A stretch of DNA of 8,516 nt from an uncultured Slackia sp. (lineage in GTDB: Bacteria; Actinomycetota; Coriobacteriia; Coriobacteriales; Eggerthellaceae). The stretch's first letter is position 1; each line of letters begins with the position of its first letter. The position numbers and the translations under genes were made by a program. The stretch covers positions 1 through 8,516 of the forward strand of contig CAKUEV010000074.1 of the NCBI GenBank assembly GCA_934646845.1. The letters run 5' to 3'. Shown one piece after another: positions 2,027 to 5,013 of this stretch. The notes beneath the pieces are model-generated. The model saw only the letters and a program-made list of their open reading frames with translations. It searched no databases and was not told the origin of the DNA.

Positions 2027-2056
2027 TTACGAAACGGCGTGCTTTTCTGCTATAAA
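2027..2056 (+). promoter_or_regulatory. Promoter of the leader and MFS pump
   Basis: TATAAA (2051-2056) is a good -10 box, with TTACGA (2027-2032) as a weaker -35 at a spacing of 18. Transcription would begin near 2063, about 14 bases before the mini-ORF ATG and about 22 bases before the terminator stem. Confidence 0.55.
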
Positions 2057-2076
2057 AGAATCAATTAGTGGTAGTC

Positions 2077-2103
2077 ATGGGCTCAAGAGCCCCGCAAGGA
2101 TGA
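2077..2103 (+). CDS. Possible leader mini-ORF (MGSRAPQG)
   Basis: ATG at 2077 opens an eight-codon frame closed by TGA at 2101-2103. From codon 4 on it lies inside the 5' arm of the terminator hairpin (2085-2100), so a ribosome on it would stop that hairpin from forming. The upstream sequence GTGGTAG is only a poor ribosome site. Translation is therefore unproven, and the call rests on position rather than on composition. Confidence 0.3.
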   Translation: MGSRAPQG

Positions 2104-2134
2104 AAGCTTATCGTCCTTGCGGGGCTCTTTTTTT
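2085..2134 (+). terminator. Strong intrinsic terminator in the pump leader (attenuator)
   Basis: Bases 2085-2100 pair perfectly with 2114-2129 (16 bp, GC-rich core GCCCCGCAAGG) around a 13-base loop, followed by a run of Ts to 2134. Read on the minus strand there is no T-run, so it acts rightwards only. No plus-strand gene ends here, because bsh reads away from it. It stands between a promoter and the MFS coding region and most likely controls read-through into that gene. An independent small RNA of about 70 nt is the alternative. Confidence 0.85.
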
Positions 2135-2231
2135 GTTGCATTGAAAAGGTATGTTACGAGCTTTTCGGGTTTCGTTATCGCCCGACCGCCACGTTTATTG
2201 GCTTCTGTTGAAAGGAATTGGTCGCACATTT

Positions 2232-3719
2232 ATGTCTCATAGTTTTAATGAAGCGCGCGTGAAGGTTGCGCACCCCTATCTCACAATGATGGGTTTGTAT
2301 CTGGGTGGTTTTACCGGCATGTTCAGCGAGACGTGCTTGAATATCGCCTTGCCTCAGCTTGGCGTGGCATTTGGCGTCGATACCGCCATCACACAATGGC
2401 TCGTCATTGGATACATGCTGGTAATCGGCCTTGTCATGCCTTTTGCGAGCATTCTTATGAAGTGGTTTTCCATTCGCAAGCTCACGCTGTTTTCTCTTGG
2501 TATGTTTATCGCAGGTTCGCTCGTGAGCGGCTGTGCCCCTACGTTCGAGGTGCTGTTGTTTGGGCGACTGGTGCAAGGCATCGGCACGGGTCTGGTTCTT
2601 CCCATGATGTTCTCTATGGTGCTCGAGGTGTTTCCTCCTTGCAAAATTGGTGCGGCAATGGGCGTGACGGCACTCATTATTATGTTCGCTCCTGCCATTG
2701 GTCCCACGCTTTCGGGCATTCTTTTGGGTATCTTTTCCTGGCGCGCGATTTTCTTCTCGTTCGTTGGTGTGCTTGCGGTTGGTGTCGCCTTTGCTTCGAA
2801 ATTCCTCGTGAACCCCTATGAATTGACGCGACCGAGCGTCGATGCTCTTTCGTGTGTGCTTTCATGCATCGGCTTCGGCGGACTTGTTCTTGGCGTCGGC
2901 CTCGCGAGCTCGTACGGTTGGGCGAGCGCTCAGGTTCTTGCGCCTCTCGCGTGCGGCATTGTTGCGCTTGTATGGTACGTGCGCCGTCAGCTGATGATCG
3001 ATGTGCCCATTATCAATGTGCGCATCTTTGGCATTCGCGGTTTCGTTTTGGGCGGTGCTGCCATGATGCTCAACTTCGGCATCACGCTTTCGGCGATGTT
3101 CTTGCTGCCGCAGTTCATTCAGAATGCAATGGGTGTCGCTGTTGCCATGACGGGCATTATCATGCTTCCGGGCGGCATCGTGAACGCCATTGTATCAATG
3201 CTTGCTGGTCGCTTGTACGACCGCGTGGGCGCTCGCATTCCCGCGCGTATTGGTTTCGCGCTTTCGATTGCGGGTTCGATTATGTTGCTGCTTGCGATGG
3301 GGTCGAGCACGATCGCATACGTGATTGTTGCGCATATCGTGCTCATGATCGGCGTGCCGCTCGCTATGTCTCCGTGCCAGACGAGTGCCTTAAATTCGTT
3401 GCCCCCGCAGCTTTCCGCCGATGGCTCCACTGCGTTGAATACGATGCAGCAGGTGCTTGGTGCAATCGCGACCGCAGTTGCGACGAGCCTTTTGGGCTTG
3501 GGCCAGGCGAGTTATTACGCTGCTGGCGGCACATCTGCGGCAGAGGCCTTCACGGCCGGATCGCATTGGGGCTTTGCGTTCACGTTTGTTTTGGCTGTGT
3601 GTGGTTTGCTCGTGGCGCTCATGCTGAAGCAACGTGCGGAAAAGACCGACGTTGTTCCAGAGATGGAGCTGCATGAAATGAAAGCGTGCGCGCCTGCGCA
3701 GCCTGCCGGTGAGCGATAG
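2232..3719 (+). CDS. MFS efflux pump, DHA2 (14-helix, EmrB/QacA/LmrB) family
   Basis: A 495-residue inner-membrane protein with many hydrophobic segments, of the length usual for 14-helix drug:proton antiporters. Family signs include NIALPQL after the first helix (37-43), GRLVQG in helix 4 (111-116), the antiporter motif C region APAIGP...G (153-162), and a motif-A-like GRLYDRVGAR in the second half. The C-terminal tail is polar. The frame is open from an ATG at 2151, but the 27 residues this adds look unlike a membrane protein start, and AAAGG there touches the ATG. I chose ATG 2232, although its AAAGGA (2211-2216) is rather far away (15 bases). Such pumps export drugs, dyes or bile acids. 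Divergence from bsh suggests bile acid export, but the substrate cannot be read from the sequence. Expression is probably set by the leader terminator. Confidence 0.9.
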   Translation: MSHSFNEARVKVAHPYLTMMGLYLGGFTGMFSETCLNIALPQLGVAFGVDTAITQWLVIGYMLVIGLVMPFASILMKWFSIRKLTLFSLGMFIAGSLVSGCAPTFEVLLFGRLVQGIGTGLVLPMMFSMVLEVFPPCKIGAAMGVTALIIMFAPAIGPTLSGILLGIFSWRAIFFSFVGVLAVGVAFASKFLVNPYELTRPSVDALSCVLSCIGFGGLVLGVGLASSYGWASAQVLAPLACGIVALVWYVRRQLMIDVPIINVRIFGIRGFVLGGAAMMLNFGITLSAMFLLPQFIQNAMGVAVAMTGIIMLPGGIVNAIVSMLAGRLYDRVGARIPARIGFALSIAGSIMLLLAMGSSTIAYVIVAHIVLMIGVPLAMSPCQTSALNSLPPQLSADGSTALNTMQQVLGAIATAVATSLLGLGQASYYAAGGTSAAEAFTAGSHWGFAFTFVLAVCGLLVALMLKQRAEKTDVVPEMELHEMKACAPAQPAGER

Positions 3720-3849: not shown

Positions 3850-5013
3850 CTAGTTGTGGCGTTTCACGATTGCAACCATGACAAGCCCGATCACGGTAAC
3901 GCCCGCGATAATGAGCATTACCAGCGGAAGGCCGTAGGCATCGCCCGCCATTCCTAAAAGCGGCTCCACAATGCCGCCAACACAAATAACGACGCCGTAC
4001 GATATACCCGATGCGGTTCCCAGATGACGGGGCACGTAGCTCATGCCCAAGGCGACGAAAGAAGGGTAGAACAGGTTGGCCGCGCAGGTGAGCAAGCACA
4101 CGAGTACCACGGCCGAGACGAGTGAGCGGTTGAATGCGAACGCGACCAGGCATAAAGCGAGAATTCCGAAACAGAGATAGGCGATTCTGAACACGCCTGC
4201 GCGTTCGGTGATGCGGCCCGATATCGCCGTTGCAACGGCTCCCGCAATAGCGAATACCGAAAGCATGAGCGAGCCGAACGTTTCGCCTTGGCCGAGCACG
4301 CTCACGAAGAACAACGGTATAAATGCCATAAGTCCGTATTCGACGATCGATCGGCATGAAAGCACGCCCATTGCGAGGGCAAAATTTCCCCAGCGCTCGG
4401 GTTTTGCGTCTTTCTGCGTAGTTGAATTCTTGGCGATTCCTAGCGAAAGGAAGCGCTTATTGAATGCGAGCAGGACCATTGCGCAGATGGTCGTGGGGAA
4501 GAGGAAAGCGAGCGTTCCGTGCATGCCAAAGGCGGTAAGGAAGACGGCAGCCATAAGCGGCCCTACGAAAAAGCCGATGTTGCCGCCAACGGCGAAAATA
4601 GACATGCCGTTTGCTTTGCGCGCGCCCGCGGCGAGGTTTGACAGGCGTCCGCCTTCAGGGTGGAACATCGCCACGCCAATGCCCGATACCATGGCTGAGG
4701 CAAGCACCGTCCAATAGGCATCGAAAAAACCGATGCCACACATGCCGAGCCCTGCGAGGAAAACGCCGAGTGCCATGAACCAGGGGCATGCCCTGTGGTC
4801 GCCGATGGCGCCGAAGAGCGGCTGGATAACCGCCGATGCGATATTCGCGGCGAATATGAGCCCGGCGACCGCAGTATAGGAATATCCGTCGTACATCACC
4901 AAAAACGGAAGCGTTGCCGAAAGCGCGCCTTGGTTGATATCGGCGCAAATGTGCCCGGTCATGCAAAGGTAGTTGACGAGTTTGTCTTCTTTTCGAGTCG
5001 CAATCATCGACAT
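3850..5013 (-). CDS. MFS transporter, fosmidomycin-resistance (Fsr) type
   Basis: A 387-residue, mostly hydrophobic protein with about 12 predicted membrane segments. Fsr-like features are GHICADINQGAL in the first helix region (20-31), the MFS motif A GAIGDH after helix 2 (68-73), and the characteristic FHPEGGR (117-123) after helix 4. Relatives include Escherichia coli Fsr, which exports fosmidomycin; most family members have no known substrate. Two in-frame ATGs (5013 and 5007) are possible. GAAAG just before the first fits the second slightly better, a difference of two residues. It follows the radical SAM gene by 54 bases on the same strand, so the two may be co-transcribed. Confidence 0.9.
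   Translation of the reverse strand: MSMIATRKEDKLVNYLCMTGHICADINQGALSATLPFLVMYDGYSYTAVAGLIFAANIASAVIQPLFGAIGDHRACPWFMALGVFLAGLGMCGIGFFDAYWTVLASAMVSGIGVAMFHPEGGRLSNLAAGARKANGMSIFAVGGNIGFFVGPLMAAVFLTAFGMHGTLAFLFPTTICAMVLLAFNKRFLSLGIAKNSTTQKDAKPERWGNFALAMGVLSCRSIVEYGLMAFIPLFFVSVLGQGETFGSLMLSVFAIAGAVATAISGRITERAGVFRIAYLCFGILALCLVAFAFNRSLVSAVVLVCLLTCAANLFYPSFVALGMSYVPRHLGTASGISYGVVICVGGIVEPLLGMAGDAYGLPLVMLIIAGVTVIGLVMVAIVKRHN

Follow-up and report, generated by a model that had tools for sequence, protein, structure and literature searches.

Why should an intrinsic terminator stand between a promoter and the efflux-pump gene that this promoter would serve? The question is raised by an 8,516-nucleotide stretch of DNA, hereafter the window, which stems from a gut bacterium that is a close relative of Slackia isoflavoniconvertens, i.e., from a coriobacterium and not from a Firmicute. 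On its plus strand, a promoter-like pair is followed by an eight-codon ATG frame, a terminator hairpin and the gene of a 495-residue MFS transporter. The original prediction had described this structure and had read it as an attenuator in the leader of an efflux pump. All the elements it named were found in place on the sequence, and the attenuator reading is supported by the position of the terminator, by a conserved promoter element and by recurrence of the arrangement in orthologues. We propose that the leader, at about 2063–2134, is probably a transcription attenuator for this pump, in which a ligand or factor would trigger read-through. From the sequence we infer both that termination takes place in the cell and that it is regulated.

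The pump gene and its surroundings

The gene at 2232–3719 (plus strand) is predicted to encode a DHA2-family MFS efflux transporter of the EmrB/LmrB-like kind, 495 residues long. It matched the DHA2/EmrB subfamily model TIGR00711 with 250 bits, above the curated cut-off of 230.2. The top-scoring model was LmrB with 335 bits, below its curated cut-off of 800 bits, and this score does not support an assignment as the Lmr(B) lincomycin transporter proper. Relatives in the PDB are EmrB, an antiseptic resistance protein and EfpA. Translation more likely starts at ATG 2232 than at 2151, because similarity to the relatives begins near 2232 and an AAAGGA motif (2211–2216) lies 15 nt upstream. The nearest record is that of S. 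isoflavoniconvertens DSM 22006 (L001/L031), whose pump is 98% identical. Orthologues are patchily distributed: at E <= 1e-120, one was present in 14 of the 138 family genomes and in 15 of the 396 class genomes. A mobile element was set aside, since the pump had no match on PLSDB plasmids at E 1e-100 and the leader pattern was not found on viral contigs.

The nearest family-matched gene upstream, at 736–1704, lies on the minus strand, in keeping with the original remark that no plus-strand gene upstream needs the terminator. This divergent neighbor encodes a choloylglycine (bile-salt) hydrolase (NF038245, 385.7 bits, cut-off 350) and is probably outside the switch. A link to bile, also part of the original prediction, is supported only by this hydrolase beside the pump of the window, and the two genes are neighbors at just one of the 64 other orthologue loci, that of S. 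isoflavoniconvertens, as counted in flanks of up to 2.5 kb, less where contigs end. Regulation by bile is hence without support from shared gene context. Convergent to the pump is a second MFS gene (3850–5013, minus strand), matched weakly and far below cut-off by RbtT-family and bile-salt MFS models.

Promoter element and leader terminators

The promoter-like pair consists of the element CTTACGAA at 2026–2033, containing the −35-like TTACGA (2027–2032), and an extended −10 region, TGC-TATAAA, at 2048–2056 with TATAAA at 2051–2056. The predicted TTACGA/TATAAA promoter is thus present with a spacer of 18 nt and with TGC ahead of TATAAA; by eye, the same spacing is found in most coriobacterial orthologues. 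TTACGA matches TTGACA in three of six bases, and the site was missing from the list given by a consensus promoter scan. Because the element is poor by consensus and unlisted in the scan, our promoter call rests on its conservation. We compared 65 orthologue loci (L031–L092, L111, L118 and the window) with 21 paralogues. The word CTTACG occurred within 420 nt upstream of 52 of the 65 orthologues vs. 5 of the 21 paralogues, and in 45 of 65 vs. 1 of 21 it was accompanied by a suitably spaced −10-like element. The exact promoter word is altered in L035 and L041, where the element was assigned by position. In 15 pump-bearing genomes, the extended promoter pattern gave 15 matches, eleven before the pump and four elsewhere; the reversed pattern, used as a control, gave four.

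The CTTACG element is common to Coriobacteriia, Alloscardovia and lactobacilli, and many of these loci have no terminator between element and start. Across these groups (L033, L038, L046, L048, L050, L053 and others), CTTACGAA is conserved together with a TGn-10, and at several loci CTTACGAA belongs to a short palindrome resembling GCTTACGAAGC. The conserved and partly palindromic promoter element suggests a dedicated DNA-binding regulator of the pump. In many lactobacilli the promoter element is followed, after a short leader, by the pump start. It follows that the coriobacterial terminator lies inside the pump transcript, provided that the promoter works as drawn.

This terminator, at 2085–2134 (plus strand), was identified by a terminator scan, folding and alignment. 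Its arms, 2085–2103 and 2111–2129, form 19 pairs including one G-U, they enclose a loop of 7 nt, and the U tract at 2128–2134 counts seven U. The window leader therefore has what is expected of an intrinsic terminator, a GC-rich stem-loop with a U tract behind it, and the perfect 16-bp terminator of the original prediction is the uninterrupted Watson-Crick part of this larger hairpin. Among 21 terminator-like sites in the window the leader hairpin has the most pairs; shuffled sequences contained on average 12.8 sites of any strength. The segment 2062–2140 folds with −38.4 kcal/mol (z = −6.0), and none of 200 shuffles folded as well. With the Rfam covariance models, the window gave no match at gathering threshold. 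A laxer scan of the window leader and L001–L008 yielded only matches below gathering, as over the L005 leader with tfoR (26.9 of 70 bits) and Xoo2 (26.8 of 45 bits). A known RNA family was hence rejected.

Terminators recur at the same place in relatives. The scan found one ahead of the pump start in 17 of the 18 coriobacterial orthologues vs. 3 of 21 paralogues, and those of the paralogues were all weaker; in the one orthologue missed, L037, a bulged terminator is visible by eye. Folding energies were about −18 to −40 kcal/mol for the orthologues and about −13 kcal/mol for the paralogues. In the terminator scan and in the locus counts, L093–L110 were left out, as they share only 23–28% identity and are not orthologues; the paralogue control does not include L030, which has too little upstream sequence, and genome loci fetched twice were counted once. 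A terminator between promoter and start, kept together with its gene, is what an attenuator calls for, and it is found here if transcription starts where we place it, presumably near 2063.

Many orthologues of Bifidobacteriaceae and Companilactobacillus have no leader terminator, which counts against an attenuator, and in the Companilactobacillus and Alloscardovia loci scanned there was no terminator between promoter element and start. Two Companilactobacillus loci, L053 and L060, have a TTG-started frame of eight codons with its TGA overlapping the pump ATG; this may be chance. In Lacticaseibacillus, the scan placed a terminator shortly before the start in L080, L083, L084 and L088, and the CTTACG word was found in none of these four. 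Leader terminators were also seen by eye in L067, L073, L076, L081 and L085. The Lacticaseibacillus leader terminators differ in sequence from the coriobacterial ones, and possibly they reflect parallel evolution of attenuation.

Two types of coriobacterial leader

Five leaders are of the type seen in the window (the window, L031, L032, L049 and L111). They share two invariant segments, a box CAATTAGTGGTAGTC of 15 nt at 2062–2076 (plus strand), located at the expected 5′ start of the RNA, and a hairpin-top segment AAGGATGAAAGCTT at 2096–2109 (plus strand), which covers the loop and the upper end of the 5′ arm. All 15 positions of the box and all 14 of the hairpin-top segment are identical in the five leaders, whereas the stem arms between have been rewritten yet still pair. 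The stem of the window reaches further into AAGGATGAAAGCTT, and the segment is nevertheless identical in all five. Automatic folding of the alignment performed poorly, with two-sided changes in 3 of 29 predicted pairs, because rewritten stems align badly. We looked by eye for pairing between loop and box in this type and found none. Among the 138 genomes of the family, the box-plus-loop pattern occurred in four, with one match each that was always before the pump, and nowhere else. In S. isoflavoniconvertens DSM 22006, 72 of 73 leader positions are identical to the window, as are 85 of 99 in the stretch that follows and 1457 of 1488 in the pump gene. That the leader is better kept than the next stretch favors an attenuator; that it is hardly better kept than the pump gene in these two nearest genomes, at 98.6% vs. 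97.9% identity, counts against it.

A sister type was found in eight leaders from eight genomes (L033, L034, L036, L035, L043, L045, L086 and L118). Invariant here are a GCGCAG-N-GAG box and, at the terminator top, AACGAGC. Stem positions are paired in 94.7% of cells, with six pairs changed on both sides; the covariation score of 0.261 was reached by none of 500 shuffles, and the best slid version of the alignment scored 0.145. We used a covariance model of this type on the 396 genomes of the class and obtained matches with E <= 0.1 in 78 of them, most being weak. Eight matches exceeded 50 bits, and the rest scored 33 bits or less. All of them stand before the pump, and all belong to the training set of the model itself. 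No other genes with a sister leader were hence found among the strong matches in the 396 genomes under stricter filters. Some of the weaker matches represent the same leaders read on the opposite strand. Of 22 weaker matches that were taken as loci, none contained GCGCAGTGAG, and the nine of these inspected appear to be unannotated hairpins at sites other than the pump.

The sister model scored 34 bits for L038, 25 for L032 and 20 for L049, and gave no match up to E = 5 with the window, L031 and L111. From these scores we conclude that window and sister types are related at most distantly. Two further ideas on the sister type were dropped. Mimicry of 16S rRNA by CGCAACGAGC in its terminator was rejected, as this part of the stem changes together with its partner in L118, L038 and L040. 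A conserved leader peptide was likewise set aside: peptides resembling MRRCI...VVATS can be read from a GTG-started frame in L033, L036, L043, L045 and, as a relative, L086, but L034 no longer has the start and L035 is out of frame.

Reading frames, competing folds and the trigger

As its trigger, the original prediction had proposed a ribosome slowed on the eight-codon ATG frame. This mini-ORF (MGSRAPQG*) is present at 2077–2103 (plus strand), and its TGA at 2101–2103 lies inside the 5′ arm of the terminator as described. Relatives do not keep its start. In S. isoflavoniconvertens DSM 22006 (L031), ATG 2077 is ACG, the sole change in the 73-nt leader, and in L032, L049 and L111 the ATG is absent. 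The doubt voiced from the outset about a weak ribosome site was borne out, with an anti-SD duplex of only −2.8 kcal/mol before ATG 2077, i.e., a convincing ribosome-binding site is missing in the window. The frame is probably not functional and its translation probably not the trigger, and with the ATG lost in the nearest genome we dropped it as the sensor in our main reading. In the alignment of relatives that had been suggested as a check, pairing of the stem was kept although its sequence was rewritten; the mini-ORF was not kept.

Two other starts are conserved. GTG 2068, in the frame of the mini-ORF, and ATG 2100 occur in all five window-type leaders, with frames that differ in length. In the window their anti-SD duplexes are weak as well, −1.1 kcal/mol for GTG 2068 and −2.1 kcal/mol for ATG 2100; at ATG 2100, L032 and L049 reach −8.6 and −6.5 kcal/mol, respectively. 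In L032, L049 and L111, the frame opened by GTG 2068 meets no stop inside the leader. Seven of the eight sister leaders have a GTG at a similar place, L034 having GGG instead, and L035 is put out of frame by a deletion of 1 nt. In all five leaders of the window type, the ATG at 2100–2102 falls within the invariant segment at the hairpin top (AAGGATGAAAGC), and its frame, MKA..., runs through the 3′ arm of the terminator. The analyses of starts and anti-SD duplexes, like those of competing folds, were made without L037, where no promoter element was found.

A candidate antiterminator is the small hairpin GGGCU(CAAG)AGCCC of 5 bp at 2079–2092 (plus strand), as indicated by folding. Both GGGCTCAAGAGCCC at this place and the repeat of GGGCTC at 2122–2127, on which the original prediction had built mutually exclusive hairpins, are present. 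A leader cut before the 3′ arm folds with −7.7 kcal/mol, compared with −37.7 kcal/mol for the whole leader. As they share bases of the 5′ arm, the small hairpin and the terminator are mutually exclusive but very unequal. Both can form; the competing fold, however, gains no strength over versions in which the upstream sequence was shuffled, since in the window a fraction of 0.63 of the shuffles was at least as stable (0.01–0.90 over 17 leaders), and the mutual exclusion is therefore only suggestive. In L032, L049 and L111, competing hairpins made of other bases occupy the same place and take up part of the 5′ arm. In several sister leaders the box GUGAGAC is able to pair with the terminator arm. 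This antiterminator box helix is paired in 97.4% of cells, with nearly invariant pairs and no two-sided change, and the covariation score of the sister antiterminator structure was reached by 40 of 500 shuffles. We treat an antiterminator in the leaders as no more than plausible.

To our knowledge, known attenuators of resistance genes are mostly ribosome-sensing and come from Firmicutes. In Bacillus subtilis, bmrB is a translated leader gene of 53 codons, and its translation is required for attenuation of bmrCD (PMC4191407). Like the window, this system has a terminator between the promoter and a multidrug-transporter gene as well as alternative stem-loops; it differs in that bmrCD is an ABC transporter with a 53-codon leader, whereas the window has an MFS gene and an eight-codon frame whose ribosome site is weak and whose start codon the nearest genome lacks. 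The Listeria rli80-hflXr leader is likewise short and ends transcription prematurely before a resistance gene, but there a 14-residue ORF with an RLR motif is required, whereas the ORF proposed in the window is not conserved (PMC6310831). The same source corrects lmo0919 to an ABC-F protein, i.e., it is not a pump. The predicted likeness to the resistance attenuators of Firmicutes hence extends to the layout of an attenuator but not to the proposed ATG ORF, and the host is a coriobacterium. Membership of the window leader in the family of ribosome-sensing attenuators is not supported by its sequence. Among the literature matches listed, judged by titles and the beginnings of abstracts, there was no report of this leader.

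Antitermination leaders such as ANTAR targets, BglG/LicT RAT elements and riboswitches combine a terminator, a competing structure and a conserved loop or box, and they depend on a protein or a ligand. The window leader is like them in layout and differs in having no Rfam match at gathering threshold. In our reading, most transcripts would end at the hairpin with a length of about 72 nt. A factor or ligand would recognize the 5′ box together with the hairpin top, and recognition would favor the small competing hairpin and thereby permit read-through into the pump.

Read-through might instead be brought about by a ribosome that is slowed by a drug on one of the leader frames (ATG 2077, GTG 2068 or ATG 2100) and that covers the arm and blocks the terminator. 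The other conserved starts are the reason to keep ribosome sensing in view, and the stop of the ATG 2077 frame inside the 5′ arm, the stronger duplexes at ATG 2100 in L032 and L049, the GTG of most sister leaders with its similar peptide start in five of them, and the precedents bmrCD and hflXr all fit. We nevertheless consider it rather unlikely in view of the ACG in the nearest genome, the weak duplexes in the window, the missing in-leader stops of the GTG 2068 frame in L032, L049 and L111 and the GTG lost or out of frame in sister leaders.

It is also unlikely, on our estimate, that the terminator is simply leaky and constitutive, setting a low basal expression, with all regulation exerted by a DNA-binding regulator at CTTACGAA. 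A promoter element conserved over three lineages, the GCTTACGAAGC-like palindrome at several loci and the many orthologues without a leader terminator would agree with this, but it leaves the invariant box and hairpin-top segment unexplained. A hairpin RNA that is short, very stable and conserved could finally be an independent small RNA, about 72 nt long and ended by a terminator of its own, that acts in trans, while the pump is transcribed from another promoter. This we regard as highly improbable: many lactobacilli have this promoter element a short leader ahead of the pump, 2135–2231 is less conserved (85 of 99) and contains no promoter listed by the consensus scan, and the box-loop pattern was found solely before the pump in its four genomes out of 138.

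We therefore retain an attenuator with ligand- or factor-triggered read-through as our reading and regard the leader as a candidate for a conserved attenuator of a new sequence type. More speculatively, and with considerable doubt, the two forms could constitute a new, translation-independent class of leader RNA in gut Coriobacteriia that directly senses a drug- or bile-like compound, or a protein that signals such a compound, via 5′ box and hairpin top and switches a single pump, the Lacticaseibacillus terminators being perhaps a parallel case. As the leader is small and portable, what it senses would be directly testable with reporters. If true, a conserved attenuator of gut Actinomycetota that works without the leader peptide first proposed would offer a different route to multidrug-pump induction.
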